Source of the DNA: Amyelois transitella
Taxonomy: Eukaryota > Arthropoda > Insecta > Lepidoptera > Pyralidae
Length of the DNA stretch: 64,000 bases
Direction of reading: 5' to 3'
NCBI RefSeq assembly: GCF_032362555.1
Contig: NC_083513.1
Coordinates: 1,860,001-1,924,000 of the forward strand
Below the pieces are notes generated by a model that saw only the letters and a list, made by a program, of their open reading frames with translations, was not told the DNA's origin and searched no databases. The position numbers and the translations under genes are program-made. Within the stretch, counting starts at the first letter, position 1. Each line of letters starts with the position of its first letter. Shown piece after piece: positions 693-63,561 of this stretch.

Positions 693-3600
693 GTGTACAC
701 TCCATCCTCGACTGGGCGCTATCCACAGCTGAAGCCAGCGTGACCCTCGCCGCCACCACAGCCGCCCCCTATGTGGCCACACCCTTAGCCGCCGGAGACG
801 CGAGGATCGCAGCTGCCATAGACGCTTTGGAGAAGAGGGTGCCCCTCGTGACAGAAGAACCTAAAGTCATTATAGAGACCACCAAACAGGCAGTCATGTC
901 GAGATTAACGCCTCATGTAACGAAGGTAAGTTAATTGATTCAGAACTAAGCTTCTTATTTGACCACACCCTTAGCCGCTGGAGACGCAAAGATAGCTGCT
1001 TTAAACGCTTTGGAGAAGTGAAAGTCTTGTGTGTGAAAGGCCCAGTTTAGGTGAAGAGGCAGAAGAGCCTTATATCATCATAGTGATCACCTTGTGGAAT
1101 GAAGAGAAAGAAGTATGTAGAGATCACGGCAAGTGGAAAGATGTAGTCTCTGCCTATCCCTCTTCACTTGCGTATCAGACGATTATCACAGATAATTGGA
1201 GGTAAACAAATTAATTTAGATAAGGAATTATTGACACTTATGTTAAAGGCATCAAAATTCCTGCAGCAGCTATCATAATCACATGATTTCAGGCTAGATT
1301 AAGATAACGTTTTTAGTGCAGATTATGAAGTACATACACACACACACACACACTTATGCGGTGGACAGGGTCAGTGGTCACAAGACTCGAAGTCACGTGG
1401 TCACATGCTTAAATGAATTTAAAGATGTGACGATGATCGAGATGTTATGTAAAAAAATGCAACGATTATAAATTATTCCCCTGATAAAATGTTATTAAAA
1501 TTGCCTTTATATCAACTTCACATAGCCTTTCCAATAGTTTTTGTGTTTAGGCTTAGATTATACCTTTTTCTTTTTCATTTTGTAACGAAAGTAATTTTGT
1601 TATCAAATAGAATTCAACATTAACTTAGCACAGGAAGGCTTTCTATATTGTTGCAATTGTTATAACAAGGTCATATAAGTAAGGTTAAATTAGTTACATG
1701 ATTTAACTGATAATTACCGACGCGTTATTAGCAATTCAAATCGTCAGACAATATTTCATAAACGTGTGTGTTAATATTTGAAAACAATTCAATTGTTCAT
1801 TGTTATAGAGGTTATGACGGCACAGTCTCAATACGAGACAGTGTTGGAAGCACAATAAATAATATTGTTTCTATATATATATTCACCTACCGCCCAAACC
1901 GCTGGGTCTAGAGATTAAAATTTGCTATGTAGATTTGCCTTATGTGGTCGAGGGGTGCACTGAGAGATGATTTTACGAAATAAAATTATCGGCATTTTTC
2001 GCTTTTCGTGAGTGCAACCTAGGACAGGCTCTAGTATTGTGAATGCGAAAGTAAGTTTAGTTTTGGTTTGTTTGTTATCTCTTCACGCAAGTTCTACTGA
2101 ACCGCTCTTAAATTTCGCGTATACCTATATGATTAATGATATAGGTATACGCGAATGATTGGGAGAAGGACAGGATAAAAACTAAAGTTCCCATTAAATT
2201 TTCTAAAAACCTGTAGCGCGGGCGAAGCTGCGGGCAAAAGCTAGTCTCGTATAAATGTTATTGTATAACGTGCTACGTGCGGGTTACCAGGCCCGCAATA
2301 TTAGGAGATAATAGACATCCTGTTTATTGGAGCGGAGCTCGGTGGAATGTGCCACAAGAACGGGACTCGAGATAAAAATATCGTCTAAATATAGAGTGGA
2401 CTCGTTTGCGGAGTAAAAAATGCAGCGCCTAGTTGTTGCATTTTTGCCAGTCTTGCTTGGGTACGGATTATACTTGAGTTTTCTTCATAAGAGTGGATGA
2501 ATGAATGACGTGGTCTGAATGTGACTTTTGAACTGTGAACCAAGGTCTACAGTTTACGTTTAATGAGTAAACGTAGTTACTCATGTAGGTAATAAACAAT
2601 TCAATATCGAGTGGACTCTGGACGGGTGATACACCGGCAGATATATAAAGTATCTACAAAATAATATCTATCATATTCTTTATTCTATATTCCATTTCTG
2701 AATCGAATTCGGGATCATAGACTTACAGCGTGACTCAAAGCTCTGTCTGCTCCTTGAGAGTTAAAGCCTTGATGTTGTAAGTTCTGTACACACTTATGCG
2801 GATATGAATATCGATCTTGTGCTAAGTATTTTATACCAGTTACGCTTTGGGACGTTTAGCTTAGGAGTTCAGGGTATAGCCATGAAAGCGAATTAAACAG
2901 AGAGACTTTCACAATTTTCTTTTTAGGGATAAAGATGATATGCGTTACAATCATGAGAAGAATATACTCAATTTAGTTGAAACATTCTTTGGCTGTAAGA
3001 ACCGCAAGGCCAACTAATTGACAGTGCAACGACCTACTGGACGAAGTGGGGATGGAATAGTGCATACTAGAAGCAAATTGTAGGTCACTTGTTTGCGTCA
3101 TGTGCCTAATATACTTATAGGTACGTACATTTTGTATGTGTGTAAAAGACATATGATAACACGCTTACAAATATTTGTAGTGGACCACTTGTTTTTTTAG
3201 ATAAACAATTAAATAAAAAATATATGTGTCTACTAAAATTTTTTTCGTTTGTTTGGAAAAGTTTGAGATTGCTAATATACGGAAAATTCTTGAGACACTT
3301 TGATCAAGGTATTCTATAAGAAAATTGTGATTCAGTTAACATTACTTCAAGAACTTTGTAACTAAAATAAATCTGAATAATTCGACCAGAAAGTAACCAA
3401 TTAATTTTCATTTCTTTGTTTTAATTACAATTGCACTGAGACTGAGACGTCTAATGCTTGCATAATAAAACTAGTTAGAATAACATCCGTTTTCGTAATC
3501 GAAACGAAGGTCTGTAACACGGAAACAAGGCTATCATTGCTCTATTACAGATTATAATATAATTTTATCCAATTACTTAGATACATGGAATAAACAATGA

Positions 3601-6012: not shown

Positions 6013-7777
6013 AACATTTATTTTTACATGTATTTAATCTTAACCTTATATTGTACTCTCTCACGCCACAATGTTAGATAAAAAAAGTAAATTTTTACCA
6101 ATATTGTTTTGGCGTTAGCTGTAAGTATTAATTGGAGACTGTTGAATAGTCTTACATTTTGATGTGTATTTACGGCCGTTGTATGGCCATTTTGATAAAT
6201 TTTATACTATGATAAATATATTTCTTGGATTTTATACCATGAATTTTATTAATTACCCCTGTATTTATATATATATTTTTACCTTAATACTTAAATGTTT
6301 ATATAAATAAAACATTGAGGTACTTCATAAAACTTTATTTTATTTAATAATATTAAATCTTACTGTGTACAAATCACCTAGGGAACTCCGTTTGATCACT
6401 TTTTAGGCCCATAACGACGTAAAACATATCTTATTGTTACAATACAATACATTTCAGGCTTAGGTAATTGAATCCTGAACCACTACGTATGGGTACCTGG
6501 GCACGAATACAAACTAATTGGTATACACATCTTTAACGGATTTAAAAATTATAGGGATCCATTATTATTACAACACGGAATACATATAACAGTAAAGATA
6601 CAAAAGAAAATGTTATAAAACAGATATGAGATTTGATATGGAAGATTTAGAAGACTTTGCATAGTAAGGAGACACTTTATAAAAATTAAGTAGATATTAA
6701 GATATAATTTAATTTATGAAGGATTGTTTGGCACAAATGTTTAGAAATATAGTAATTTTCGAATAATAGTTTTGGAAGTGAATGGAAGATCCAATATTTA
6801 TTTCAACATCGAAAATGATATAAAACTCCAGCTGCATAATAAATAACCCAAGGTAAAATATGTTTAAAGTTTTAAAAATATAAGTTCTAAACTACAGCTG
6901 CCGTCAACTAAACGATATGTGTTCATAAAATATTACTCGAATAATTTGTGCTTAAAAATTATTATATGAAAAACAACCTTGTCGCAAAATATACAACATA
7001 CTCTTAATTAAGTTCACTGGCCAAAACCATACAACAGTAATGTTTCATGCTTAAAAAAAAGTATCATTTAAATTTATTAATTTCTATTGTAAAATAGGTT
7101 TATGTTAATTTGGACGTATATGGGGACGTAGTTTAAGTAGAATAATAAGGATAAGATGAAATTACCAAACATACCATTTGTTCAGATCTTCGTTACTATT
7201 TAGTGGTGACAACATGGTTTCCATATAGTGTTAGATAATATAAATGAAAAAATGTACAGAACGCATATTAAGAACTGTAATTTTTTTTAAATAACTTAAA
7301 CTGGAGGGCGATGCGCTTGCGGTAAATCTTAACGCTTATGCCCGTAGGTAATACTAATATTAGTAAGGTTTAAGCCGTAAACTGAAAAACAAATCCAAGT
7401 TAAATTAATTATAGTATTTCATTTAATAGCGGCAACGGAAAACATAATTTTTTTAAATTTCAGCTTTCAACTATCGCGTTTTATGAGATAAAGCTTGGTG
7501 ACGGACAGACAGACAGCGCAGGCTTAGTAATAGAGTCCTGTTTTCACCTTTTAGGTACAGAACCCTAAGATCACGGTGAAGCTAAAACATTAAGTATCGT
7601 AATAAAGTACCGCGTAAGTTGCTGTTATCTGTTCATGTTAATAAATCGACAAAATACTACATAATTAAATTAAATGAAAATAAGAAAGAAAAGTCTTACA
7701 AATACTACGTAAATATACGTCCACGTTGCAGGCTATTGATGATCATTACGTCGATGGGGCGCCGTCTCGGTGATGCT
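6013..7777. other. Convergent 3' ends of perilipin and AP-1 sigma
   Basis: AT-rich and without a protein gene. An AATAAA at 6306-6311 on the + strand fits perilipin. TTTATT at 6334-6339 and 6339-6344 gives AATAAA on the - strand and fits the distal 3' end of AP-1 sigma. The two poly(A) signals are only about 25 bases apart, so the transcripts probably abut or overlap tail to tail. An earlier AATAAA lies right at the perilipin stop (about 5998-6003). Confidence 0.55.
6306..6344. terminator. Paired convergent poly(A) signals
   Basis: AATAAA occurs on the + strand at 6306-6311 and, as TTTATT, on the - strand at 6334-6344. The spacing suits two genes that end towards each other. Use of either signal is inferred, not shown. 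Confidence 0.45.
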
Positions 7778-7822
7778 TTAGCCGAGGCCGTGGTCCTCGA
7801 AGAAGCCCTGCGGTGTCTCCTC
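7778..7822 (-). CDS. AP-1sigma: AP-1 sigma alternative last exon, tail [14 protein letters not shown]
   Basis: On the - strand an acceptor (TTGTTGCAG) is followed by 14 codons and [17 protein letters not shown]. It joins in phase 0 to the shared exon ending QDLLQE at 14477. This is the distal of two last exons of equal length, and its 3' UTR would run towards the perilipin 3' end. A longer frame on the + strand over the same bases is a shadow. Confidence 0.85.
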   Translation of the reverse strand, partial: EETPQGFFEDHGLG

Positions 7823-16621: not shown

Positions 16622-19600
16622 ATGAAAACGTTTACGATTGATGATATACCAGAATTTTCCAAAAAGGAGCGTATAGTCGTCGTAGGAGTAATTGGAAAGT
16701 CACCTTATCGTTATCCCAATAAAACAACTCCTCTTTTGCCCTCAGTAAAGAGCGATAAGGTAAATTTTAGTTAAATTTCAAGAGCTTTCTGCTTTCTAGC
16801 CGTACCAATAAAACCAAAACATTGAATATTTTTTTGTTTACAAAGTTTAATGTAACCTCTTAATCAATGTTTACTTTTTAATGTTTCTACAGAATAACAT
16901 CGAATGTTTTTGGGATGAGCGTAGTGGAGTGCTTTATCTGCATGCTGTTACATACCTTGATACCAAGCGGCTCACTGAGTTAGCAGCTACTCTGGATGAG
17001 GATTCTAAAACCACTATCAAGGTAAAAACAAGTGTAAATCTTCTTTTGCTTTAGAAGCCTTCTAAATATTAACTCATCATTTTAGAGATAATAAATTGAT
17101 TTAAGAGTTTACCATCAATACAAATAAAAGAAGTATTATAGGATTGTAGCGAGTGTAAAAATGTATTTTCTGCCTACCCCTCTAGGAAAGGGTTGCATGT
17201 TATTTATACTTTTTTGTACAAAATACAATTTGTGTAGTACAATATGTGGACTTCATGTTTAAAGCATTATCTTACAGTCTACCATTATATGAAGCAGAGA
17301 AACTTTGTGCGGAAGATATTAAGTAATTTTACTAAACATATATATGTATGTACGTTTTATTCACTTTAAAGGATGCGGATGCAGCCCATTGGTTAGTGGC
17401 TTCAGGGGAGCTGGCCGCTGACTCCTGCCGGTTGATAGCCCTGCTGTTCCACCTCTGTCACATTGTGGTGCTGTCTTCTCCCACTCCGGTGTTTGATTTG
17501 GGATACCTGCAGCTTTTTAAGGCTATTGACGCTTATAGGTGAGATTGTGCACAGTGTGCAGTATGCCATAACTAAGATTATTTTAACATATGGTGTTGAA
17601 TATTATGTTTATTTCAATAAAGTATGCATATACATCAAAATTACAAGTTTCCAAATCATTTCAAGGCTAACTCAATCTGTGTAATTTTTCCGTAATTGTA
17701 ATTTATTGTATTAATTAATTGAATTTTTTTTTAGTGCCGTGTGTTTCCCGTTCCAATACAAAAAAGAATAGGACCACTCCATCTCTTTCCCATGGATGTC
17801 GTAAAAGGCGACTAAGGGATAGGCTTACAAACTTGGGATTCTTTTTTAGGTGATGGGCTAGCAACCTGTCTCTATTTGAATCTCAATTCTATCATTAAGG
17901 CAAATGACTGAATGGCTACATGCCATTCAGTCTTTTCAAGACTATTGGCTCTGTCTACCTCGCAAGGGATATAGACGTGACCATATGTATGTATGTATGT
18001 AATTTTTAATAATAATAAGTTTTAATTTACAAATTTCAGAACAGAACTACAGCCTCGCACTGCGCCCTTGCTATCCGCCATCGGTCCCGGCACCGCGTGG
18101 GAGAGCCACGGGCGCTCGTGCTGCCCGCGGCTGCTGTTCCACTTCCGCAGGGCTCCGGCCCCGCTGCGGAGGGCCCCAGCGTCCCTCAAGCGCTTGGAAC
18201 ATTCGGTGGAAGACCAACTGTATTTTATATTGAGGAAGGCGAGGATCATCACTAATGTGTGGTAAGTGTGTAATCGTCTAAGCAGATATACAAGGAGAGT
18301 GTGGAGGGAAAGGTCGGGTGGGAAGACCTAGATTAACATATCTTGATCAAATTAAGGACGTCCTGGTAAAGGGTCAGGTCAAAAGTACCCGAAACCGCCG
18401 AGCTTGCATGAAGAGAGTATGAATGTGGATGAAGCGAAGGAAGTATGCAGAGATCGTGGTAAGTGGAAAGCAGTAGTCTCTGCCTACCCCTCGGGGAAAG
18501 AGGCGTGATTTTGTGTGTGTGGTAAGTCTCCAATAGTCTGTTTCTGTAGGGTTCTATCCTCGCTGTGGAGCACCACAGTGTCCGTCAAGCGACTAGGATA
18601 TTCCATAGAGGACCAACTGCATTTAATATTGAGAATGGCGAGGATTATCACTAATGTATGGTGTGTCTGACTTGTAGACCATATTTTCTAAATATATGCC
18701 ATATCTATCTATAAATATGTATGGTGTGTCTGACTTCTAGACCATATTTTCTAAATATATGCCATATCTATCTATAAATTATCTACAGATAGGAACAGTG
18801 AATGAAAGGATTCACCTTTACACTTCTTACTACGAAACAAGTAATAATTAATTCCTGATACTCTCAAGTCGTCTGAAGAGATTTTCACGTCTAGATCCTT
18901 TGTGGGATAGAGAAAACCAACAGTCTCGATAAGACCGAAAGGCGTTGTTCAGCTGTATAGCTTTATTATGGAATTGAAATTCAAATAGTGACAGGTTGCT
19001 AGCCCATCGCCGACAAGAATACCAAGTTTGTTAGCCTATTCCTCTAGTCGCCTAAAACGCCTTACATGGAAAAGAATTGCGAGTGGTCCTATTCATTAGT
19101 GCCGGGAACTACACGGCACAAATTTTTTTAGATTAACTTCTCAGCTGCCTAATCACTGATCAGTGCACTGGCCTTAACTGCTTAAGCTCTGATCAGCGCT
19201 CGCCCTACCGGCCACGTTTTTTATTTTATTTGCATTACTATAAGTTTGAGACTTATAGGAAATACTCCTTTCTCGCTCGAAAAATTGATTTCCCGCGGCA
19301 GATGCGGGTGTAAATCGGATCGCGGGTTCGGCAGCTCAGAGGTTAAGATAATTAACTTAATTGTTCACAGTGCAAAATCCCTGTTCGCCATTCCCAAAAA
19401 CGAGGAGTTTGTGTACATGACCGCCGACGACAGCGCCAGCGCCGCCCGTGACGTCAGCTCGCTGGTGCGCGGCCTCGTGGAGCGGTGCTCCGGGGACGTG
19501 ACGTCACAGCCCGGCGTACGGCCCACCTTCAAGGAGTTCCTGCAGGCTCACATAGACCTCGCATTCAGGGACGGGTTTGATGACAACGTGGGGAAGTACG

Positions 19601-25600: not shown

Positions 25601-28600
25601 AAATGAGAGCGTTAAGGAGTATGATGGGTGTGAAATTGAGTGACAGGATAAGGAACAGCGTGATAAGGGAATGTTGTGATGTGAAAGAAGATGTAGTTAC
25701 AGGAATAGAAAAGGGTATGTTAAGATGGTTCGGTCATGTGGAGAGGATGAATGAAAGCAGGTTGACTAAGCAGATATACAAGGAGAGTGTGGAGGGAAGG
25801 GTCGGAGTGGGAAGACCTAGACGAACGTATCTTGATCAAATTAAGGACGTCCTGGTAAAGGGTCAGGTCAAAAGTACCCGAAACCGCCGAGCTTGTATGA
25901 AGAGAGTTATGAATGTGGACGAAGCGAAAGAAGTATGCAGAGATCGTGGCAAGTGGAAAGAGGTAGTCTCTGCCTACCCCTCCGGGAAAGAGGCGTGATT
26001 TTATGTATGTATGTATGTATGTTTAAGAAGTGAGGGCTGAAGACTCATATTTTAACACTTTGACAACGGATAATATTGTCATTGTCTGGAGGAAGTCTCT
26101 GATGGAAGGCTACTGCACAAGTCAATATCAACTGCAACAAATCTGCTTATAGTTGTCAGACTGATTGCAAGACCAGCAAAAAAACCAGTTAAATTGATAA
26201 AGCGACTTGCTACAATTGTAATCCAGATTACACTATTATGAGAGAGAGAGATATCTAACTACATTTAGTATGGTAACATCTCCAGGGCGGCGTCTCTAAA
26301 AGGCGAATCAAGCCAAGAAGCCGTTCCGTCGGGCCGGACGTCCGGCTCGGCGTCGCCCACGGCGCCGGGCGCGGAGCCGGAGCCGGCCGGGGACTGGTCC
26401 GAGCCGGACGCGCTGTCCCCGGGGGAGGCCGGGGACGACACTGACGAGGACAAGTCTTCGGCCTCGGACAAATATGTGGTGCCTGTCAGGGGAGACTCTA
26501 ATACAGGTTAGTTTGTAATCTTCAGTATTTTTTTTACATACATATAGTCAAGTCAAGTCTCAAAGACTGGAAGGCCACTTTTAGTTGATGGCATTGAAAT
26601 TTAGATATTGACAGGTTTCCATTAGTCGTCTTTTACGACATCCACGGGAAGGAGATGAAGTGGCACAAGGGGTTCTCTTGTAGCGATGTCCCCGGAAGAG
26701 GCTAGGTACGACAGAATAAGTCTCCGGTGTCGGATATATATAAGTGGTGTTGTGTTAGGTCTAATACAGATTAGTTTGTATTCTTTTTAGTATTCTTTTT
26801 AGTGATTTTGCTTTCTGTATTCAAAGGGTATTCAGGCAGCTACACTGTGGCAGCCCCGACGGCCATTTACCAGCTTTCCCGGTTACTCTACAATGTCGCG
26901 TGATGCCTTAGAAAAATCTATGTAAAGTTCCCTCTGTAGTGACGCGGAAGTCTGACTCAAATTGCTTACTATAAACTTACTTATCCACTCCAAATATAAT
27001 CTCCTTCCCAGGTTATACGCAATCAAGATTAATACCATGTAACCTTACAGATAAAGTGATTACCCGTCAGCCATCAACGACGGAATACCTCCCCGGCATG
27101 TTGCACTTAAACAGCCCCAGCGGTCTGCTGCCGGCCTTCCCCAGCTGGTCCCTCGTCTGCCTCGGCGCCTCCTCGCTGTACTCGCACAGCGTGGGGCTGC
27201 CCGAGCACCTGCAGCCCGGCTTCCTGCCGCACACCAACTACCTGCTGCCCTGGGACTGCGCCGTGCGGTGAGTGGCCACCTCTATGGAGACCAGCTGTTT
27301 GAAGTGTCTCCCTCGTCTGCCTCGGCGCCTCCTCGCTGTACTCGCACAGCGTGGGGCTGCCCGAGCACCTGCAGCCCGGCTTCCTGCCGCACACCAACTA
27401 CCTGCTGCCCTGGGACTGCGCCGTGCGGTGAGTGGCCACCTCTATGGAGACCAGCTGTTTGAAGTGTCTCCCTCGTCTGCCTCGGCGCCTCCTCGCTGTA
27501 CTCGCACAGCGTGGGGCTGCCCGAGCACCTGCAGCCCGGCTTCCTGCCGCACACCAACTACCTGCTGCCCTGGGACTGCGCCGTGCGGTGAGTGGCCACC
27601 TCTATGGAGACCAGCTGTTTGAAGTGTCTCCCTCGTCTGCCTCGGCGCCTCCTCGCTGTACTCGCACAGCGTGGGGCTGCCCGAGCACCTGCAGCCCGGC
27701 TTCCTGCCGCACACCAACTACCTGCTGCCCTGGGACTGCGCCGTGCGGTGAGTGGCCCCCTTTATGGAGACCAGCTGTTTGAAGTGTCTCCCTCGTCTGC
27801 CTCGGCGCCTCCTCGCTGTACTCGCACAGCGTGGGGCTGCCCGAGCACCTGCAGCCCGGCTTCCTGCCGCACACCAACTACCTGCTGCCCTGGGACTGCG
27901 CCGTGCGGTGAGTGGCCCCCTTTATGGAGACCAGCTGTTTGAAGTGTCTCCCTCGTCTGCCTCGGCGCCTCCTCGCTGTACTCGCACAGCGTGGGGCTGC
28001 CCGAGCACCTGCAGCCCGGCTTCCTGCCGCACACCAACTACCTGCTGCCCTGGGACTGCGCCGTGCGGTGAGTGGCCGCCTCTATGGAGACCAGCTGTTT
28101 GAATTTTCTCTCTCATGTATATTTCATAGGTGACCTTGGGTTGCATTGAGAGAGAAAGAAATTCGTATGGAAAGAAAAGATTACGGGGTTTTTTTTGGTT
28201 CACGCTAACGCCGGCTGGCGCGCTAAAGCGTTACAGCACAAACCGCATGATATTTGCATATTTACATATATATTACATATATATCCCATTTTCTTTCTCT
28301 CTCTCATTCTCACTCTCACTTTCTCTGTACAGTACTACCAGTCGCATCGGCAATATTCAGCAGAACAGTGCAACTTATCGCTCAATCAATCCGAATGAAA
28401 ATTCAATAAAATAACAACAACTTTATTAAAAGTACATTAAACTTTAAATCCAACAAAACAACTCGGACTATCTCGCTCACAATATCGGACAGTTTAGATC
28501 GCAGGTTCAAATGGGACGCTATGCTAAGCAAATATAGATAGGTGCAAATATTTTCGCGGCATACAAATATTACACTCTTACATCGGTATAACTTATAAAT

Positions 28601-47037: not shown

Positions 47038-47295
47038 AAGGGTCAATTTATACTAGAGCAGAGTCGAAGCGCATCGAAGCGTCTATCCAAAACTGAACAT
47101 AACAAATTCAACCTTAACCCCACAGCGTAACGCACGCATTGCTTCTGAGGTTTTAAAAAGACGCGCACTTTCCTCTGAATTCGCGTCTGCGCGTGAGCGC
47201 CAAGGCTGATTGGTGCGGCGTGCGGTTTCGCTTTAGTTGTGAAGAATTTGACGCTTCCATGCGCTTCGACTCTGCCCTAGTATAAATTAACCCTT
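47038..47295. mobile_element. MITE with 37-bp terminal inverted repeats, 258 bp
   Basis: The left end (AAGGGTCAATTTATACTAGA, then GCAGAGTCGAAGCGCAT) matches the inverted right end over 37 bases with two mismatches (47038-47074 and 47259-47295). The bases outside are TA-rich. The inside is GC-richer than the surroundings and contains several GCGC-type words. No coding sequence. Confidence 0.8.
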
Positions 47296-52200: not shown

Positions 52201-54661
52201 ATGCTATGCCCAAAAACGGGAAAAGTGATAGCGCCCAGAGGATATAAAAATGTATACCAAATAGTAAAGGGCAAAGAAAAGGAAGCAGTCACGGTTTTAG
52301 CTTTTCTTTCCGCTATGGGCGATATTTTACCTCCCTGTGTAGTTTTCCCGTACATCAGACCCCCCAAAGATGTTATAAATAGTATGCCTGATGGTTGGTT
52401 TCTCAGTAAATCTGACACTGGTTGGATGAAGGCAGATATTTTCTTCGATTATATTTCTAAATGTCTATCCAAGTGGATAGATGAAAACAAAGTGAAAAAA
52501 CCAGTACTGGTTTTTGTCGACGGTCACAAAACTCACATGACAATGAAGCTGAGTAAATACTGTCATGAAAATAACATCATTTTGTTATCAATAAACTCAT
52601 TTCCCTTTTCAACTGACTTAAACAAAGGAAGAGGTACTCAATTTGAAAAAAAATTTTAGATGACGTGTCAGCAACTTGTTCCAAATAACCAAACCTGAAC
52701 TTCTATTCCATCATTATGCCATCTAACTAAACATGGCCTTCTGACTCTTATGACTTTCGACTCTGTCCACCAAATAAGGGATTAAGACGTGACATATGAG
52801 TCTGTAACTCACCCACTTGCCGCCATTAACGTTTGCGGGGTCCTCCCACATCGGCTTGATGCCGAGTTTGAAGAGGTGCAGGTCTGATAGCGGCGGCAGG
52901 TCCGCGGGCCGCGCAAGATGCGTGTACAGCCCCCACCATTGTTCCACGCTGCCCACCCGACCCACCAGACGTAACGCCTAGAATAGAGATTGACGAGTGT
53001 GATTGATTGATTGATGAGTGTGATCCAGCATTATTGGAGCCTAGGAATACTGATCAGACACATAATGTAAGTTGATTATTAAAATTATCAAAAAGTAAAA
53101 TTTTGATGTTTTTGCGTGTACAGCCCCCGCTATTGTTCCACGCTGGCCACCCGACCCACCAGACGTAACGCCTAGTAAAGAGATTGACTATTACCCTCGT
53201 TATGTACTAAACAAATTACAAATTGTAATTGTTTCGATAAAGAATAAATATATTATCAACTGAAGGTAAATAATGAAATTAATTTAATTAATTTTTTTTT
53301 TAACTATGATATGGTATATAACTATATAGGTGTTGCTTTTTCTTCTCACGGCTGTAAATTGGTTTTTGAATGTATTTTTTTTAATTAACATATGTATCAA
53401 ATTTGTTTGTGAGAAGTATAATTGTCAATTTTAAATTGAATTTAAATTCTATCACAAAGTGACTATGATTTTTCATATGAACTTTATGGACACAGGCAAT
53501 TTAAGTGCCTCACAACAAATAGTGGATTATATAAAAAATATTTAAAAAAAATCATTATTCTAACTTGAGGGTAATGAACAAGAGGATAGTCCAGCTACTT
53601 CAAAAGCAACAAGTTAATATGGTCAGTTGATTCAATTTTTATTTTATATATTATATTTTTTTACTCATTTTAATGTACAAAAACTCTACATCCCTTGCGG
53701 GGTAGATAGAGCCAACAGTCTAACAAAGACTGAAAGGCCACATTGTACCTATTATTTTATGAGAATAAAATTATTATCAGAGGCGCAACAACAGAATACT
53801 TGGTCATTTCCCTTTATTACTAAAACTCTATCATTCTTACTTAATATGCATTACAATCTGAAAAATAGTTAAAAGATCTGGATTAAATCTGAAATAAAAC
53901 TTAATTTTATTTGAAGATGAATGTTAATTGGTCTGACAATTTTTTTTTCTTTTTTTAATATTTTATAAGTAACAGTGAATATAGCATTGACTGATTAAAC
54001 ATTAAAAAAAGTTTGCCCTATTTATCTGATGAGTCAAATAATGTCCAATCAGACTCACTCTTGTAACACATGGGACAGGATCTTCTACTAGTCTAATTGG
54101 AAATTGTACCACAATATTAACATTGACACATTAGGATGTGCTGTAAATATAAACTTTCAACTATGGGTTTTTTATGGGTAATTTAAGGTTCCCAGTTATT
54201 TCTATCAAGTCTACTACTAAAGATGGTAAATATCAAAAATAAATGTTACATTATGTTAATCTACCTTACACATCAATCACTTTCATATGTAAAAAAAGTT
54301 ACAATAGGTACTAAAGTTTTCAAATAGTGCATCATTCTATAGTCAAATAATCCAATTGGATTATTTGCTCCTAGGTTTGTTACTGAGCATAAGTATGATG
54401 TTAGTGTGAACAGACCTGGCCATAGCCGGTGGTGGAGGCAGACAGCTCGCGGGCGGGGGGTCGCCGTGAGAACCACATCCAATAGCTGTACTCCAGTTTG
54501 TGTTCGTGTGGAGGCACTGGCGGCGGCGCGTACTCCTCGGAGTTCCTCTCATCTTCTTCATTGTTGCCATGGTTCTGCACCTGGCCACCTTGCCCTCCCT
54601 CCCCAGAACGACGATCAGGCACGTTCAAATTGTAGAATTTGCACATTTTCCTTTCAGTCAT
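49258..54661 (-). CDS. eIF4EHP: eIF4E homologous protein 4EHP (eIF4E2), cap-binding repressor
   Basis: 4EHP binds the mRNA cap but not eIF4G, so it blocks initiation on chosen mRNAs. Four exons on the - strand, all phase 0: 54661-54416 (82 codons), 52977-52813 (55), 50246-50124 (41), 49446-49258 (62 and TAG), giving 240 aa, normal for the family. The core reads EYSYWMWFSRRPP, SVEQWWGLYTHL, HLFKLGIKPMWED (W126, cap-stacking by homology), NGGKW, AMLGEQFMVGAELCGVVLSVR and RVRDALRRILQLP. Y80 stands where 4EHP has Tyr and eIF4E has Trp, which supports 4EHP over eIF4E-1. The N-terminal 50 residues are Gly/Asn/Glu-rich. Intron 2 holds a pogo-like transposase; intron 1 holds a chimeric duplication. 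It faces CDC16 head to head. Confidence 0.94.
49447..50123 (-). other. 4EHP intron 3
   Basis: AT-rich on the left. At about 49980-50095 two direct copies of a degenerate word (GCGGCTAACATTTTGCTTGC and GGCCGCTAACAGTTTGCCTG) lie about 90 bases apart, next to the exon 3 donor. This may be the remains of a short repeat; nothing else is supported. Confidence 0.4.
50926..51555. repeat. Eight 13-bp subterminal repeats (CCAGTRKTCAGCC type)
   Basis: Direct copies: 50926-50938, 50944-50956, 51344-51356, 51481-51493, 51543-51555. Inverted copies: 51309-51321, 51363-51375, 51519-51531. Two inverted pairs are close together (51344/51363 and 51519/51543). Repeats of this kind often bind the element's own transposase. 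Confidence 0.85.
51658..52659 (+). CDS. Pogo/Tigger-like transposase (DDE_1 family), C-terminally truncated
   Basis: A 333-residue ORF. Residues about 12-50 form a psq-type helix-turn-helix (EEKHTQALDAIKNGMSIREA, then GVPRGTIQDRL). The middle (KPGKKW-like GRPGKKWMNSFFRRN) is the CENP-B-type DNA-binding part. The catalytic core begins ILNGDETSF (first Asp) and reaches VFVDGHKTH (second Asp). The usual segment with the third acidic residue after PFSTD is replaced by NKGRGTQFEKKF and a stop, so catalytic function should be lost. No stop or shift lies upstream, so the loss is recent or the N-terminal DNA-binding part is kept. Start: ATG after an AT-rich leader. Confidence 0.8.
   Translation: MSLSRPILQYPEEKHTQALDAIKNGMSIREASRNHGVPRGTIQDRLHLRVPEGPRKMGPDSVLNKLEEAEIATWLKEIATCGFGMKPDNLLNTVQDMMIEDGRPNPFVNGRPGKKWMNSFFRRNNMFSMRTPEANSKGRAVITEESIIKWFEKLTDYLRENQALDVLEDSKRILNGDETSFMLCPKTGKVIAPRGYKNVYQIVKGKEKEAVTVLAFLSAMGDILPPCVVFPYIRPPKDVINSMPDGWFLSKSDTGWMKADIFFDYISKCLSKWIDENKVKKPVLVFVDGHKTHMTMKLSKYCHENNIILLSINSFPFSTDLNKGRGTQFEKKF
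52728..52800 (+). mobile_element. SINE 3' fragment beside the 4EHP exon 2 donor
   Basis: ACATGGCCTTCTGACTCTTA through GACTCTGTCCACCAAATAAG to GACGTGACATATG resembles the SINE end. It ends about 12 bases from the donor of 4EHP exon 2 (52813), antisense to that gene. Confidence 0.55.
53011..53114 (+). pseudogene. CDC16 exon 3 end plus donor, copied into the 4EHP intron
   Basis: TTGATGAGTGTGATCCAGCA to AAAATTTTGATGTTTTTG matches 56125-56229: the end of CDC16 exon 3, its GTAAGT donor and about 45 bases of intron, with few differences. The source is 3 kb away. It is followed at once by a copy of the 4EHP exon 2 acceptor region. Confidence 0.92.
53114..53188 (-). pseudogene. Copy of the 5' part of 4EHP exon 2 with its acceptor
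   Basis: GCGTGTACAGCCCCCGCTAT to GACGTAACGCCTAG and the following GAGATTGAC repeat 52920-52996. On the - strand this is the acceptor CTAG and about 20 codons of exon 2, now with a TAG in frame (CAA TAG). It is an acceptor decoy upstream of the real exon. Confidence 0.9.
53189..54415 (-). other. Rest of 4EHP intron 1
   Basis: AT-rich. It includes a reverse SINE 3' relic (about 53688-53740, CATCCCTTGCGGGGTAGATA). No coding exon or other repeat is visible. Confidence 0.5.
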
Positions 54662-55458: not shown

Positions 55459-58400
55459 ATGGCTAAAGCAGAATCTGCTACTAATATGGATTGTTTAAAC
55501 ATCGAATTTATGCGATCTCTTGTAAAACAGTACTCAGAATTGGTAAGTTAAATATGTGAACAACTACCATTTACCAATACTTGTCAATTTACAAGCTTAA
55601 TATAACCTGTATATTCATTGTCTAGGGACAGTGGACAAGTGCATTTTTCTGGGCTGATGCTGCAGCTGCAGCCGGTAGCGGCAATGGCCAGGCTAGTGGA
55701 GACGATATCTGGCTCTTGGCCAGTGCCATGTTGGCTCGGGGGGAGCTTCATAGAGCTGCACATGCAGTCACTACAAGAGGCCTACACAAGTATGTTTTTA
55801 GAAGCATGTACTGTACTCTGTTGCTGTATTCTGTTATTTAATTTTGTAAGAAAATGTAGGCATTTATCAATTAATATCTTCACTCCGAAAAAAACATAAA
55901 AGGTACTTTGTTTAAAATTTGTTATGAAAAATGACTGAAATATTAACTACAGTCTGCTTTATTCTGAAAACTCGTATTTTTTTTCTATTTTGCGCTGGCC
56001 AAACGTCACATGGTGTACAACCATTTAATACTGAATCAAATGTTGCAGGAGGCACTTATTGTGCCTTGGAGTGGTGATGAGAGCGTTCCTGACTGCAAAA
56101 GAACCAGCGACTGCCCTTAGCATGTTTGATGAGTGTGATCCAGCATTATTGGAGCCTCGGAACACTGACCAGACACATAATGTAAGTAATTATTAAAATT
56201 ATCAAAAAGTAAAATTTTGATATTTTTGTATGTAGGTTATTTTATTTTCATGTTATGTATATCACCAAGGCTTTCCATGAATTTGACAAAAATAATGAAA
56301 AAGATTTTTTGTCATAAAATATTACCCTTTGCTGCCTTTCATTAGGCTATTTTTTATGGCACAGTGTGTTTGACCTCAATCTAAGTAAGATGAGGCCCAA
56401 GGTGTTTCATGCAAGCTAAAATAATGCCTATTCTCTTGCCTTGAAAGTCCTCAAGTTGTTTACAACGGAGAAGAGAATGTGGAGTGAGTGCCTTTTACAT
56501 TGACTAAACAAATTGATAAAACAAAAGAAAAATTGTTTATTTGGTACATACACTGAAGATTAAAAAAACATATTAAAATAAATAACAAAATATCTACCAA
56601 AATGTGTGTTGTTTACAGAGAGCGCTTGCAGGGGTATTAGTGTGGCAAGCAAAAGCTCTGTCAAGTTTAGAGAGGAGGGAAGCGGCTGCGGAAGCCCTGA
56701 CCTCCGCTCTAAGGGCGGACTGCGCTTGCTATGAAGCCCTAGATTTGTTGCTAGATCAACATGCGCTTACTTCAAAACAAGGTACTTGATATTTTGTCTT
56801 GAAAACAATGTAAAGTTTATTGTTTGTTTATAAGAACTTTGGAAATACAGAACTAAATATACATTAAAAAGGTATATTATAATATGCAGGTGTTATAAGA
56901 AATGTACTTAGGGCAATTTGCCTGTGGCGTAGTAAATGATATAGCTAACATTTCACCTGCATCTCAATAAGTTGTTTCAGTTGAGATATATAAGAAGAAG
57001 CAATGAAGACAGTGGTAAATATGTATGATATGGATGGATGGGATAAGACCCACGTGTGCAAAGCACATTGGATTAGCAAGAAAATTAAAAAGAAATATGA
57101 GAACTAAATAACTACTTAACTGTGCCTATGACAAACTGAAAAAAAAAACGTCAAATTTTTAAACTCTAAAGCTCGTTGTCCATCGACGCTGATCGAAGTG
57201 GCGACAGCGAAGCGAGTTAAATATTGACCAATACTAATGCCTTAAATCTCAGTTTTAAAATCAAACCAGAATTATAAACTTATCTAAAATTCTCAATCTC
57301 TTTTTTTAGAATTGGAACTAATAGAATCACTGCCGATCAGCCAGCAGCTTAGCTCAGCGGAAGGTATATTAGTTCGGATGGCCTACTACGAGCGGTTGCA
57401 GCGGTACGTGCCGCCCTCGCCTGCCGCTATACCGCCCACCATGGATTGTCCAGTAAGTTTAACATTTGTGAATTACCAAGTGTGGATAATATATAATTGA
57501 ACAACAATAACTACATTCACTGGGAAGAATTGAGAGAGAGAGAGAGACAGATTAAACGTACATTAAAATCACGCCTCTTTCCCGGAGGGGTAGGCAGAGA
57601 CTACCTCTTTCCACTTGACACGATCTCTGCATACTTTCTTCGCTTCATCCACATACATAACTCTCTTCATGCAAGCTCGCCGGTTTCGGGTGCTCTTGAC
57701 CTGACCCTTTACCAGGACGTCCTTAATTTGATCAAGATACGTTCGTCTAGGACTTCCCACTCCGACCTTTCCCTCCACTCTTCTTGTATATCTGCTTAGT
57801 CAACCTACTTACATTCATCCTTTCCACATGACCAAACCATCTTAATATACCCTTTTCTATTAGACAAATAAAGTTAATTAATTTATTATAAATTAAAAAA
57901 ACATAACAATTAATTAATGTAAATTGTGTCCGTTCGTTCGCCCCAGATGGCGCAAGAAGTAGAAGCGGTCCGAGCCCGCACGGCGGAGGCGGCGGCGTGC
58001 CGCGCGCGGCGGCTGTGCGGCGCGGCGCGCTGGCGGCCGGCGCTGGCCGCGCTGCCGGAGCCCTGGGCCTGCGTGGCGGTCCGCGCCGCCTGCCTCGTGG
58101 AGCTCAGGAAGACCGCCGACCTGTTCGCCTTCGCCCACACCTTGGTGGACGCCTACCCGCAGGAGTGGACGTCGTGGTTCGCGGTCGGATGTTACTATTA
58201 TCTGATTGGTGAGTTATCATGACCAAGGATCTTAATGATCCTTGGCTGTATGTTAGTACGAAGATACAGTAGAAGCTAGAAGAAGATTATGTGTTCGCAT
58301 CAGTCAGTCGTGAGGAAATACATTCTAGTTGTATTGAACCCTGGGCTTGCGTGGCTGTGATGGCCGCCTGTATTGTGGTATTTGAGAAGAGTGCCTAGCT

Positions 58401-61400
58401 GTACTCGTTTGCCCACACCCTGGTAGACGCCTACCCTTAGGAGGGTACTTAGTGGTTTGCAGTGAATTACTATCTAATTGGTGAGTAGCATTGATATATG
58501 GGTTAGGATCTAAAAACTCTTGGCTGTGCGTCAATGTAGTACCTGACCAAATTGCCTACCTATGGGAAGCAATGTTTATTAGAATAAAATAAAAAGTAAG
58601 GCTCTTGCCAAAGGAAGACCTTTTAAATGCCTCGAAAACAGAAAGAAACTATATTAAGCATGTCATTGTACCAAGTCGCGAGAAAAATACTAGTTTATAT
58701 AATTACTAACTGATGAAGCACAGCCCAAAGCCCAAATAGCCAAGATTTTAAATGTAGCGTGTCGGTTCCTTATGTTGTCTAGAATTCACTAAGAAAAGAC
58801 TTCCCGAAATTCCCACGGGAATGGCATTCACCGGACGCGGATAAACACCACTGATTTACATAATAGATTGATGTTGTTTCTCTGCAGGTAAAAGCGAGTT
58901 CTGTCGTCGCTACCTCAGCAAAGCCAAGTGCCTGGAGCCGGGCGCGGGCTGCGTGTGGCTGCTGTACGGCCACAGCTTCGCCCGGGAGAGTGAGCACGAC
59001 CAGGCAATGGCCGCCTACTTCAAGGTAGGGGTACATAAAGGTCATTCAGGTGCATGCCCGAGACGTTTCTCATACATATATACGTATGGTCACGTCTATA
59101 TCCCTTGCGGGGTAGACAGAGCCAACAGTCTTGAAAATACTGAATGGCCACATTCAGCTGTTTGGCTTAATGATAGAATTGAGATTCAAATAGTGGCAGG
59201 TTGCTAGCCCATCGCCTAAAAAAGAATCCCAAGTTTGTAGGCCTATCCCTTAGTCGCCTTTATCGACATCCATGGGAAAGAGATGGAGTGGTCCTATTCT
59301 TTTTTGTATTGGTGCCGGGAACCACACGGCACCGACTTTTCACATATAAAGTCTTAAAAACATATACCTACAAGGGGTTGCACTTAGAGAATGCTGGCGT
59401 AGTAGGTACAACTTGAATTTCCAATGAAACTGATACCCTGTAGCGGCCGTTCAGCCTCCACGGACAGACAGACACTTTGACTTGACATTTTAACTGAACA
59501 TAACTGACTGACAAGTTAATGAAAAAAAAGGACAATCGAATTTTGACTAAGACAGGACGCCTTGAACATCCGAAAATCTGGTTTTATTCTGACTGACCCA
59601 CCAGACCCTCGGCCCGTTCATACCCATTGACATATTTTCCCTATGTTGATGATCTTACGAATTTACCCTCACTTCACATGTCATGACGCGAGTTTAACGT
59701 TTTTTTTCCCATCGCTAAAAGTGTACAACGCCACAAATGAAGATTTTAAACCTTAAAAATACTCACTGGCGTGGAAGATAGATATTTAGAACGCAATATT
59801 TCTGTCCAAATCACGTAGAACAGACAGGCCGATGGAGCCAAAAGGTTTTAAAAAAGTTACCACGCACCGAGCAAGCGCAGTGTTGACAAGACGGTCTTGT
59901 CTTCGGACGAACGCAGAATGCTTTCATACTTCTACTTTGGTACCTTCACTACTACACATAAATTACACTTTTCTATGTTACGTACATTAGTTTCCATACC
60001 AACCGATGCTCGTACGGGTAAAGTTGGATATCGTGAGGAAACTTAACAATTTTACGTGTAGCGGGAGCGATGATTTGGCTCGACCACCACCAAAGGGAAA
60101 ATCTTCCGCCAGGCTAGGTGTTATGCCTGGGGAACCGCGGCTCTGACGATGTTGTGTCGGAAGTTGTATATATGCTCCAATCCGTGAAATCTTTGCTTGC
60201 GCGATTTACACTTTCTGCTGTTTTTGACTTATAGCGTCACGTGATTCTATTTTTGGGACTTGTGGCGACACCTATAAGCCGAAGTTCGAAGGTCCCTGGT
60301 GTCAGACAAACTTTAGGAGGATGACAATAAGATGAGGAGTGTTTCTGTCCTCAGGCCAGCCAATTGATGAGCGGCTGCCACCTACCCCCTCTCTATGTGG
60401 GTGTGGAGTGTTCCCTGCTTAACAACCCCAGCATGAGTGCCAAGTTCCTCGCCAGAGCAGCCGCTTTACATCATGGAGTTGACGTGAGTATTGTTAGGTT
60501 TTCAAGTAATAAGTTAATGTATGTAATGTAAATATATCTTAGTTTAATAAAAAATTAAATAAAAAAAAGTAATAAAATAATTATGAATAGAATAAAATAA
60601 AGCCTCGGAGAGATGAATTTTACTAAGAACTAGATTCTAGTGAAAAGCAGACTGAAGAGGCACTATTTGAGAATGCGTGCACCAATAAGGCCTCATCTTG
60701 CTTACCACCAGGCAGATTGCTTTCTATTTATTGGTGCTATGTTAATATAATTAAATTTTATTTTTATTTAATGAATAAATTTCCCAATATCTAAATTACG
60801 TATGCACGTGAGGGTCAGTGCGCAGTAACTGACCACACGTCATTCGTTCGTCGCTCTCATACAAAATCGCTGTCACATAACATTCACACTTATATATTGT
60901 GTCCCTACAGGCGACTAAGGGATAGGCTTATAAACTTGGGTTTCTTCTTTTAGGCGATGGGCTAGCAACCTATTTAAATGTCAATTCCATCATTAAGCTA
61001 TGTTCGCTCTGTCTACCCAAGGGATATAGACGTGATTATATGTTATACGTATGTATGCACAGTGCGCAGAGCCCCAAGCGGGCGAGGCGGAGGGCTCCAA
61101 GGGGCGCTGGGAGCGCGTGCTGGCGCTGGTGCACGAGCCGCACGTGGCGCACGAGGCGGGCGCGGCGGCCTTCGCGGCCGGCGACTTCAGGGCCGCCCGG
61201 GCTCTGCTGCTCAGGGCGCTCGACATCGCCAGGGGGAACAAGGATCTGGATGACGTGAGGATGTTATGAGATTTTAGTGAAATGTCATCGGGTGTGAAGC
61301 AAGGAGGATATTGTATAGTAGTTGGCGGCTGGAGACTTCAGGGGTCTGCTGCTCAGGGTGCTGGACATAGTCAGGGGGAACAAGGATCTGGATGTCGTGA

Positions 61401-63561
61401 GGATATTATGTGATTTTAGTGAAATGTCATCGGGTGTGAAACAAGGAGGATATTGTATAGTAGTTGGCGGCTGGAGACTTCAGGGCTCTGCTGCTCAGGG
61501 CGCTCGACATCGCCAGGGGCAACAAGGATCTGGATGACGTGAGGATGTTATGAGATTTTAGTGAAATGTCATCAGGTGTGAAGCAAGGAGGATATTGTAT
61601 AGTAGTTGGCGGCTGGAGACTTCAGGGCTCTGCTGCTCAGGGCGCTGGACATTGTCATAGGGAACAAGGATCTGGATGCCGTGAGGATGTTATGAGATTT
61701 TAGTGAAATGTCATCGGGTGTGTAACAAGGAGGATATTGTATAGTAGTTGGCGGCAGGAGACTTCAGGGCTCTGCTGCTCAGGGCGCTCGACATCGCCAG
61801 GGGGAACAAGGATCTGGATGACGTGAGGATGTTATGAGATTTTAGTGAAATGTCATGGATATATAGCGTCAGCGCTTTGAGCGAATCGGGTGTGAGCGAG
61901 AAAGATATTATAGTAGTTTGCGGCAGGAGACTTCGGGGATCTGTTGCTGAGATGGATGACGTGAAGATATTATTATATTGTTTTTAATCGTTTTCATAAA
62001 AGATGGTTGTCAGTTTGTTGTGTTTGTGTATGTGTCTTTGTATGTATGTATGTTTGTCCGCGATTATCTCGCGTTTCACTGAACCGATTTTCAGGAAAGT
62101 GTTTGTTACACACGAGAGAAAGTTTCAGAAATTTAATCGACTTCAAAAAAGCAGAATATCGATTCGAAGAGTCATTTTTGGTGGAGGGATAGCTCATTGT
62201 GTTTATCAAATTTAAAATTCCTTTACTAATGTATCTTTAGTGTGCACTTAAAAATGGCTTGTGTTTAAACGCCTACCAGAAATGCACCTATATTACTTCC
62301 AATAAATTCGAAGTGCCTGCCATAACGGATAAATGCTCACCAAATTGTGTATCACAAAATATTCTAGAAATAAAGCTATTTTGCTTTTTATTACATTCTA
62401 TAAAAATAAATACACACCTTTAAAGTCAATTTGAGTCCAAATTTTGTAAATTATCGCTAAGGAGATGTTACCAATATTTTATTTTATTACTTTCATTTTA
62501 GTTATCTATGCTGAGGGAAAAAATTACAGTCAACCGCAAATATTTTTTTCATACCAAATATAATATTGATTACACCAAACACAAGTTACATAATTAATGC
62601 ATTATGCATTTAATTATATATTTTTATGCAGTTACATAATTACTTTGTTGTCAATTATTGCAACAGATAATGACTAAGGTATACAATGAAACAAACCATT
62701 GGTAGATGAGGAAATAAAAAATCTAAATTAAAACAGAAATTTTATTAAAGTGTTCATAAGATTAATTTAAGAATAATCAATGGCACTTCAAAAGGAACAC
62801 AATAATTACAGTCTTATACAATCTTATCTTATAAGATTAATTTGTACTTAAAAATAATCAATGGCACTTTATATTTTACGTATATATTACGTTTATATTA
62901 CGTAATCTTAGCTTGACCATAATATATTTTGGATTTTGGTTACATAATTTGATTACAATAAAGCAAATTTGAACTGTACATTTTGGTATCAATGTTACTG
63001 TTTTAGTGAAACAATATTTGGTGAGCATTAATCCATTTTGGCAATCAAAAAGAATATTTGTACACAACGTACGATTATTCTGACGTGTGTATACTTATTT
63101 TGAAGCTTAATACGTTTTACTTTGGGAAACTAAGTATAGATTGATTTTAATTTATATGGAGTTAATTTATTTTACTGGGTACTAAAATTTGGAAAACAAA
63201 AGCTATTTTGGTGAGCCCTTAAATTGTTGTATAGCAAAAATAAAAGATGCAATTGCCATTGACTGAGCACCGCATGACCCCCAGCTGGACGCGCGCTGGG
63301 CGCCGACGCTGGACGCGCTGGGGCACGCGGCGCGCGCGCTGGGCCGGGCGGGCGAGGCGCTGTCGTGGCACTCGCGCGCGCTGGCGCTGCGGCCGGCGCG
63401 CGCGGCGTCGCTGGCGGCGGCCGCGCTGTGCCTGGCGCTGCTGGGCCGGCCGGCCGACGCGGCGCGCTCGGCGCACGCGGCGCTGGCGCGCGACCCCGAC
63501 GACGTGGTCGCGCACACGCTGCTGGACGCCATTCTGGACAAACTGGACGCTGCCGCCGCTG
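55459..63561 (+). CDS. Cdc16: CDC16/APC6, anaphase-promoting complex TPR subunit (3' end missing)
   Basis: CDC16 is a TPR scaffold of the APC/C ubiquitin ligase that triggers anaphase and mitotic exit. Ten exons join in phase: 55459-55542, 55626-55789, 56049-56181, 56619-56781, 57310-57452, 57947-58208, 58888-59024, 60355-60483, 61063-61254, 63285-63561, giving 561 aa up to the window edge, which the gene passes. Family marks: LVKQYSEL, SAFFWADAAA, the LHRAAHAVTTRGLHK TPR, CYEALDLLLDQHALT, ELIESLPIS, WTSWFAVGCYYYLIG, CRRYLSKAKCLEPG, YGHSFARESEHDQAMAAYFK, GCHLPPLYVGVE, and LDALGHAARALGRAGEALSWH. Exons 6, 9 and 10 are extremely GC-rich against AT-rich introns. A part of exon 6 is copied at 58331-58490 and of exon 9 at 61321-61975. 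Confidence 0.93.
56182..57309 (+). other. CDC16 introns 3 and 4
   Basis: AT-rich, apart from exon 4 (56619-56781). The first 45 bases of intron 3 are the part also found at 53070-53114 in the 4EHP intron. Nothing else is supported. Confidence 0.5.
57565..57863 (-). mobile_element. LINE 3' fragment, antisense, in CDC16 intron 5
   Basis: AAAATCACGCCTCTTTCCCG through CCACTTGACACGATCTCTGC and GACTTCCCACTCCGACC to ATACCCTTTTCTATT. It has the longest LINE 3' end after the main copy and the fused copy at 21090. It ends 84 bases before the exon 6 acceptor. Confidence 0.85.
58331..58490 (+). pseudogene. Decayed copy of the 3' part of CDC16 exon 6 with donor
   Basis: TTGAACCCTGGGCTTGCGTG corresponds to CGGAGCCCTGGGCCTGCGTG of exon 6, and the match continues to CTAATTGGTGAGTAG (exon: CTGATTGGTGAGTTA), including the donor GGTGAG. 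Stop codons are present (CCTAG, CCCTTAG). G and C have often become A and T. There is no acceptor. Confidence 0.9.
58491..58887 (+). other. Rest of CDC16 intron 6
   Basis: No repeat or coding sequence recognised. The GC content is moderate, and the normal acceptor TTTCTCTGCAG precedes exon 7. Confidence 0.5.
59071..59332 (-). mobile_element. SINE (GCCGTGTGG family), full antisense copy in CDC16 intron 7
   Basis: From CATACATATATACGTATGGT and CCCTTGCGGGGTAGACAGAG through GGTTGCTAGCCCATCGCC to GGTGCCGGGAACCACACGGC. One of the least diverged copies, useful as a reference for the family. Confidence 0.88.
59333..60354 (+). other. CDC16 intron 7 repeats
   Basis: Bases 60052-60172 match the repeat at 22566-22711 (CGGGAGCGATGATTTGGCTC, CTTCCGCCAGGCTAGGTGTT, CGATGTTGTGTCGGAAGTTG). 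The flanking 59440-60050 and 60173-60300 are probably parts of the same, unclassified element, since they have no coding potential and differ in composition from other introns. No terminal repeat was found. Confidence 0.5.
60909..61058 (+). mobile_element. SINE 3' part abutting the CDC16 exon 9 acceptor
   Basis: GGCGACTAAGGGATAGGCTT through GGGCTAGCAACCTATTTAAA to AAGGGATATAGACGTGATTA and an (ATGT)-type tail. The tail runs straight into the acceptor (TATGCACAG, exon from 61063), so the bases upstream of the splice site are SINE sequence. Confidence 0.8.
61180..61975 (+). repeat. 142-bp tandem array: CDC16 exon 9 3' part plus donor
   Basis: The true exon end (to 61254) is followed by units whose GTTGGCGGC word starts at 61321, 61463, 61605 and 61747, and by a decayed fifth unit near 61916. 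Each unit has about 67 bases of exon (9 bases shorter than the gene: GCCGCCCGG is missing), the donor GTGAGG and about 67 bases of intron. The period is not a multiple of 3. Open frames here are repeat artefacts. Confidence 0.93.
61976..63284 (+). other. CDC16 intron 9 remainder
   Basis: AT-rich. TGTGTTTGTGTATGTGTC and ATGTATGTATG at about 62017-62053 form a TG-rich microsatellite, followed by GTTTCACTGAACCGATTTTC, a block common in insect repeats. Two direct copies of TAAGATTAATTT and AATAATCAATGGCACTT lie at about 62758-62790 and 62832-62869. No exon is visible. Confidence 0.5.

Follow-up and report, generated by a model that had tools for sequence, protein, structure and literature searches.

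Local copies of exon 3′ ends and donor sites in introns of Amyelois transitella

Partial exon duplications in the window

The window, a stretch of 64,000 nt of Amyelois transitella contig NC_083513.1 (C9; positions 1,860,001 to 1,924,000), carries exons of a perilipin-like gene, of SMG8 and of CDC16/APC6 on its plus strand, and of an eIF4E-family gene on its minus strand. Positions outside the window are given on the same scale (w = C9:1,860,000+w), with negative numbers lying upstream. Six donor-side copies and one acceptor-side copy of exon parts were recovered from these 64 kb by self-alignment, TRF and sequence reading. The features are as follows.

693..925, plus strand: perilipin-like exon, parent; open reading frame, start set by eye; donor GTAAGT, intron begins at 926
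956..1097, plus strand: decayed copy, within the downstream intron, of the 3′ part of this exon from 770 onward; 186-bp unit
18040..18261, plus strand: SMG8 exon, parent; Pfam Smg8_Smg9, E 1e-12; donor GTAAGT at 18262
18542..18662, plus strand: decayed copy of the 3′ part of this SMG8 exon; 77 % over 121 bp, E 3e-21; copy donor mutated
18654..18779, plus strand: 63-bp tandem duplication, 98 %, beginning within the final bases of that copy and extending into the intron
26275..26506, plus strand: exon between two SMG8-matching exons, parent; open frame, start approximate; donor GTTAGT at 26507
26683..26801, plus strand: decayed copy on the donor side, intron start included; 71 % over 132 columns, E 2e-11; donor GT changed to AT
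27013..27267, plus strand: SMG8 exon, parent of array; Pfam Smg8_Smg9, E 1.9e-33; start set by eye; donor GTGAGT at 27268
27149..28114, plus strand: array of six 160-bp units, parent included; TRF, 99 %; 119 bp of exon 3′ part and 41 bp of intron
52813..52979, minus strand: eIF4E-family exon, acceptor-side parent; ends set by eye; acceptor just above 52979
53113..53188, minus strand: acceptor of this eIF4E-family exon and its first 61 bp, copied into the upstream intron; 93 % over 76 bp
57947..58208, plus strand: CDC16/APC6 exon, parent; PDB 3hym, E 1.2e-12; start set by eye; donor GTGAGT at 58209
58336..58486, plus strand: decayed copy of the 3′ part of this CDC16 exon; 73 % over 157 columns, E 5e-19; GTGAGT donor kept
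61063..61254, plus strand: CDC16 exon (TPR), array parent; coding score, start approximate; donor GTGAGG at 61255
61199..61951, plus strand: array of 4.6 units of 142 bp and a decayed further piece; TRF; 56 bp of exon and 86 bp of intron

The first gene matches Perilipin weakly (E 0.0064, under Pfam's curated cut-off). Its copy is recognized by 83 % identity between 770–835 and 956–1018 (self-alignment, E 1e-13), with a fainter likeness visible by eye up to about 1097. No donor is visible in this copy because it runs into sequence of a family that is repeated in the window.

Within SMG8, three exons (at 18026, 19186 and 26975) match Pfam Smg8_Smg9; a further exon at 26269, which lies between two of these, has no Pfam match of its own. 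The end of the first parent exon aligns with its copy as 18143–18263 to 18542–18662, and the end of the 26-kb exon as 26410–26536 to 26683–26801 (71 %). The donors of these two copies, at 18.66 and 26.77 kb, are mutated, and in both cases a stretch resembling a dispersed repeat was seen by eye between parent and copy (at 18.3–18.5 kb and 26.6 kb). The 63-bp duplication at 18654–18779 is a second-generation event. In the 160-bp array the GTGAGT donors are intact in all six units. Two retroelement copies, 96 % alike over two 300-bp stretches, also lie in the SMG8 region: a 542-aa reverse transcriptase ORF at 24370–25998 (Pfam RVT_1, E 1e-41) and its broken relative at 21093–21954, 3.8 kb upstream (RVT_1, E 6e-21).

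The end of the first CDC16 parent (58058–58214) aligns with 58336–58486, the unit of 278 bp consisting of 151 bp of exon and 127 bp of intron. The PDB match of this parent is that of the exon at 57923. Identity of the second CDC16 parent is indicated by a weak TPR match and, for the exon at 61036, by a CDC16 match with E 0.46. The array proper spans 61199–61856 (92 %, TRF), with the decayed piece reaching 61951, and the GTGAGG donor is present in five of five units.

In the minus-strand gene the ORF at 52723–52974 matches Pfam IF4E (E 4.9e-20), and 52919–52994 aligns with 53113–53188 (93 %). Beside it, 51625–52659 holds a 344-aa ORF encoding HTH_psq and DDE_1 domains, which we take to be a pogo-like transposase gene.

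A preliminary description of this stretch had claimed six donor-side events of one shape, a single acceptor-side copy at 53114–53188 and differing ages, some copies being decayed and some near-identical. Self-alignment of the window recovered all pairs and supports these points in the main, identities spanning 71 % to 99 %. The account of the six copies as carrying the exon 3′ part, the donor and the intron start holds for the general anatomy but fails for the donor in the 956–1097 copy, and the copy donors at 18.66 and 26.77 kb are mutated. Likewise, all six align as described but are not of one kind, since two are multi-copy arrays (160 bp × 6 and 142 bp × 4.6). Single donor-side copies are 71–83 % alike to their parents, and the acceptor-side copy 93 %.

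By their sequence, the donor-side copies sit within the existing downstream intron, and neither a new intron or exon nor a copy with both acceptor and donor is evident among the window events. The frames of the six window parents meet a stop 4–15 nt beyond the first donor, and among nine unit lengths checked only 186 is divisible by 3; correct expression therefore needs the first donor.

Cases in the flanks and on other contigs

The 100 kb on either side of the window were examined (264 kb in all), together with 26 windows of 3 kb on other contigs, which were hand-picked among multi-exon protein-kinase matches with no strict random rule. Outside the window, splice signals and open frames inspected by eye served to call donor, acceptor and strand. 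The cases are the following.

L009:916–1330: donor-side array, 131 bp × 3.2; C1-domain exon
L011:3216–3934 (-56784): donor-side array, about 72 bp × 10; the exon's F-box match is weak and below cut-off
L012: decayed single donor-side copy; exon by open frame and splice signals only
L013:3156–4244: donor-side array, 328 bp × 3.4; exon by open frame and splice signals only
L013:7955–8875: donor-side array, 97 bp × 9.5; exon by open frame and splice signals only
L014:6784–7841 (C9:1836784–1837841, -23216): whole-exon array, 172 bp × 6; acceptor included; splice signals
L032, contig C2: downstream copy, 451 bp, 96 %
L042, contig C17: downstream copy, 191 bp, three units
L045, contig C17: downstream copy, 75 %
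L047, contig C7: downstream copy, 88 %; donor not visible in the copy
L049, contig C3: downstream copy, 85 %; donor not visible in the copy

Apart from the whole-exon array, the flank arrays and the L012 copy are donor-side relative to the strand of their exon, and both strands are involved. In the array at -79084 donors were read in three of three units. The parents in L012, L013 (both), L014 and L032 gave no Pfam match. In L032 parent and copy are separated by sequence that looks repeat-like by eye. The hand-picked other-contig windows gave a downstream exon copy in 5 of 26 and an upstream copy in none; the set of cases is thus not confined to the C9 region, with examples on C2, C3, C7 and C17.

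In the downstream flank an exon on the minus strand (L023:8200–8498, at 132200), presumably phospholipase-A2-like, is followed immediately by a copy of itself at 82 %. An in-frame stop hints that this exon is terminal, in which case it would have no donor and be useful for weighing the GC hotspot idea taken up below.

Counts and one-sidedness

A scan for local same-strand repeats gave 37 clusters in the 342-kb sample, 31 of them in the 264 kb. Classed by eye, the 37 comprise 14 donor-side cases, 2 downstream exon copies without a visible donor, 1 acceptor-side case (53113–53188), 2 whole-exon duplications with acceptor and donor in the copy (-53098 and -23216), 1 exon-related but unclear cluster (132200) and 17 that are non-exon, dispersed, simple or unclear. 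These 17 were left out by eye (L052, -98840, -96551, -88425, -71024, -38547, -33805, -28116, -15420, -14852, 64135, 64660, 65236, 86815, 97885, 103552 and 124056), the genome-wide check among them covering -28116 alone. In the 264 kb, 11 of the 31 clusters are copies of an exon 3′ part in the downstream intron, 1 is acceptor-side and 2 are whole-exon. The hand-classed list thus sets 16 donor-side or downstream cases, including the two without a visible donor, against 1 acceptor-side case; the exons of the 16 lie on the plus strand in 11 cases and on the minus strand in 5.

A tandem pair of a 109-bp AT-rich element at L014:2435–2656 was ruled out as a local duplication; it has 41 genome matches on many contigs and belongs to a small dispersed repeat family. 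Just past the window end, two blocks of a 16-bp minisatellite in opposite orientations (L017:135–285 and L017:1237–1413) lie about 1 kb apart and are possibly the ends of one element.

The exon-by-exon test was symmetric, covering 1.5 kb on each side of 172 coding segments predicted by a home-made codon score trained on parts of the window exons. In raw form, 15 segments had a downstream and 5 an upstream copy. Removal of 3 segments that are themselves copies left 169, of which 14 have a downstream copy (13 donor-only and 1 whole-exon array) and 2 an upstream copy, one of these two being doubtful (-88425/-87912, a segment with a weak coding score of 20). The downstream frequency is 8.3 % of predicted exons (95 % interval 4.6–13.5 %), with 10 of 120 exons on C9 and 4 of 49 on other contigs; owing to segment calling the test misses -56784, -36844, L047 and -53098. 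The imbalance is significant by the binomial test for 14 against 1 (p 0.001) and 14 against 2 (p 0.004), and also when the whole-exon case is taken away (13 against 1, p 0.002; 13 against 2, p 0.007). The other contigs alone give 5 against 0 (p 0.06).

All predicted coding segments were also searched for in the 342-kb sample after repeat masking. Among local matches none was a convincing inverted copy, the two hits being GC-rich and self-complementary; the distant matches were confined to kinase paralogues and to short stretches of low complexity or high GC content. For this sample the comparison rejects copies that are inserted elsewhere or inverted: the copies are local, head-to-tail, on the same strand and downstream.

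Excess over random placement

When the 31 clusters are placed at random, 1.73 donor-only, 1.70 acceptor-only and 2.30 whole-exon cases are expected, against 11, 1 and 2 observed. None of 4000 shuffles reached 11 donor-only cases, the maximum being 9; this shuffle took every cluster of the 264 kb with the smallest of its offsets, and segments were trimmed at arrays. A second shuffle used a 21-unit list made by hand without unclear clusters, still including the dispersed 109-bp unit, and gave 1.15 donor-only, 1.15 acceptor-only and 0.52 whole-exon cases against 11 donor-only cases observed. In preparing this shuffle we removed the TRF row of a 48-bp minisatellite, gave a value of 150 to two periods that repeat-like insertions had lengthened, supplied one exon segment manually for the parent at -36844 and trimmed a few segments at arrays. 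Both shuffles reject chance similarity.

The same pattern is seen in the arrays. TRF lists 13 arrays with a period of 40 or more in the 264 kb. Eight have three or more copies, and seven of these lie on exon ends (6 donor-only, 1 whole exon) with 3.2–9.7 copies, the eighth being a 16-bp-based minisatellite. Random placement of the seven units yields 0.39 donor-only cases, with a maximum of 4 in 4000 (unmasked sequence, 122 predicted exon segments).

An excess at exon ends thus exists, on the donor side, and acceptor-side events are near the random level. Its size among the decayed cases is inflated, as a conserved parent keeps exon copies recognizable for longer than intron–intron ones, perhaps two-fold; the inflation is weaker for five of the seven exon-end arrays, which are 97 % or more alike (98–99 % by TRF). 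The preliminary description had proposed that donor- and acceptor-side counts be set against random breakpoints. In the 31 clusters of the 264 kb this comparison bears out a donor-side excess, with the acceptor side at the random level.

Base composition is a less clear correlate. Windows of 150 bp with a GC content of 0.6 or more overlap predicted exons in 99 % of cases, a figure that is partly circular because the predictor is itself based on codon composition. The GC content of exons that have a copy does not significantly exceed that of the others (0.673 against 0.648, p 0.17), and two exon-end arrays are not very GC-rich (0.43 and 0.50). The transition from GC-rich to AT-rich sequence as a start point, put forward in the preliminary description, is weakly supported.

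Origin and retention of the copies

We favour, with a probability of roughly 0.6, recurrent small tandem duplication and array expansion from exon ends, the products persisting where the true donor precedes the copy. The units would be about 70–515 bp long, the longest enlarged by later insertions, with an upstream breakpoint inside the exon and a downstream breakpoint tens to a few hundred bp into the next intron. Unequal exchange or slippage would presumably then enlarge some duplications to minisatellite-like arrays. Exon ends would be hot for duplication, perhaps as GC-rich islands in AT-rich DNA. Splicing would filter the outcome. A copy behind the true donor and without an acceptor would stay in the intron, and the mRNA would be unchanged as long as the first donor, which is also the first transcribed, is used. 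A copy ahead of an acceptor would place a decoy acceptor before the real one and be purged, as would a duplication wholly within an exon, which would alter the protein. From the sequences we infer both the use of the first donor and the purging of other copies. The filter would not be absolute, since an acceptor-side case that is young (93 %) has survived, as have two whole-exon ones. The span of identities, 71 % to 99.8 %, points to an ongoing process.

The source of the hotspot could be either the GC-rich exon sequence or the donor itself, GC content and predicted exon being confounded. The second option leads to a different reading, in which duplications are seeded at 5′ splice sites by pausing of the polymerase, by R-loops or by breaks coupled to transcription or splicing, so that the bias is mutational and polar, not selective. 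It agrees with a polarity that tracks gene strand in the 16 cases, with the donor-side excess beside a near-random acceptor side, and with GC being no clear predictor. However, a splicing filter acting on a symmetric exon hotspot would be expected to leave the same pattern, and we consider donor-directed mutation unlikely. Equally tentative is its wider form, in which 5′ splice sites are mutation hotspots whose transcription-polar duplication of exon end and donor would be an engine of intron growth and of decoy donors. If this were so, a recognizable copy would lie behind about one exon in twelve, genome-wide.

Small tandem duplications might instead be random and sorted by splicing only, the donor-side copies being the tolerated class. 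Tandem duplications do occur in AT-rich non-exon DNA (-71024, 64660, 103552), and donor-side copies are plausibly neutral. Donor-side cases nevertheless exceed random placement in both shuffles (11 against 1.73 and against 1.15) while the single acceptor-side case is near it, and the young multi-copy arrays show the same donor-side excess. A filter only removes events and cannot create an excess; exon ends must therefore duplicate or expand unusually often. With the acceptor side near random and the donor side far above it, an exon-end hotspot combined with a donor/acceptor filter, or else donor-directed mutation, is needed, and random duplication with filtering alone is improbable. The preliminary description had offered two options, duplication starting near exon/donor junctions or escape of these copies from mis-splicing. 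The exon-end excess (11 against 1.73) speaks for the first, and escape alone is insufficient.

Mobile DNA that leaves long target duplications on insertion, or recombination mediated by transposable elements, would account for the repeat-like sequence seen by eye between parent and copy at 18.3–18.5 kb, at 26.6 kb and in L032. No such element was read at the parent–copy junction of the window arrays, of the copies at 956 and 58336, or of L042 and L047. Additionally, in a search of the 327-Mb genome (33 contigs, one assembly) the 160-bp SMG8 unit and the 142-bp CDC16 unit each gave 6 matches, all in their own array, whereas the dispersed element searched likewise gave 41. These two units are thus not dispersed in the genome as a mobile element or introner would be, which rejects transposable elements as the copies themselves, and a part for mobile DNA in making the copies is very unlikely. 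An assembly or sequencing artefact, that is, repeat expansion in GC-rich exons, is hardly credible, for although the youngest arrays are mostly GC-rich and near-identical, where assemblers can err, 7 of the 16 downstream cases have decayed to 71–85 % with mutations and insertions of their own, and the SMG8 and CDC16 array units bear distinct variants.

Comparison with known repeats

The closest known thing is the ‘mirages’ of amphioxus, minisatellite-like tandem repeats over exon–intron boundaries in Adh3, the globins BflGb6 and BflGb9, TnC and PGBD5 (PMC3087553, PMC3902484). Their units of 10–160 bp consist of exon end and intron, many with splice signals; BflGb9 has a 157-bp duplicate of the 3′ boundary of exon 2, and BflGb6 has 6 units in one haplotype and 3 in another, with RT-PCR reported and splicing described as undisturbed (PMC3087553, PMC3902484). 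The two systems share tandem units that span the exon–intron boundary in several genes of one genome, and minisatellite-like arrays with splice signals in the units (the seven exon-end arrays of the 264 kb); the 160-bp SMG8 unit is very like the BflGb9 duplicate. In contrast, mirages are described at both boundaries, whereas 16 of the 17 one-sided events here are donor-side or downstream and 1 is acceptor-side. The present case also has a frequency estimate, about 8 % of predicted exons, and it includes decayed copies of every age in a different lineage.

Two further systems are related. For potato RdRp, intron gain by tandem duplication is reported (PMC4974935); both there and here tandem duplication over splice signals takes place within a gene, but here the copies lie inside an existing intron and no new intron or exon is evident. 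Human segmental-duplication genes carry internal tandem repeats at exon–intron boundaries with an average unit of 30 bp, half of them coding (PMC2812944). These are likewise minisatellite-scale and alter exon–intron structure, but the accessible text mentions no donor polarity. No report of exon-boundary repeats in insects was found in the open-licence literature.

Should the pattern be genome-wide, thousands of exons would be followed, in the next intron, by a recent or decayed copy of their end and donor. Such a set would offer a natural experiment on the choice of the spliceosome among identical tandem donors and a measurable route to intron lengthening, and its contrast of donors and acceptors would cleanly distinguish selection on splicing from mutational hotspots. 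It would also mean that amphioxus-type mirages occur in another animal lineage.

Tandem duplication of whole exons is a known process of local tandem duplication of exon-bearing DNA. Two such cases are present here; each of the other copies is without an acceptor or, in one case, without a donor, and none could serve as an exon on its own. In the L014 array each of the near-identical units seems to hold a whole exon with acceptor and donor; the intron sequence separating them measures only some tens of bp, which probably leaves too little room for splicing from one copy to the next. The other case consists of two whole-exon copies on the minus strand (-53098; L011:6902–7064 and 7383–7544), 87 % alike and with open frames and splice signals. 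It lies about 3 kb from the exon with the weak F-box match and is possibly a functional exon duplication.
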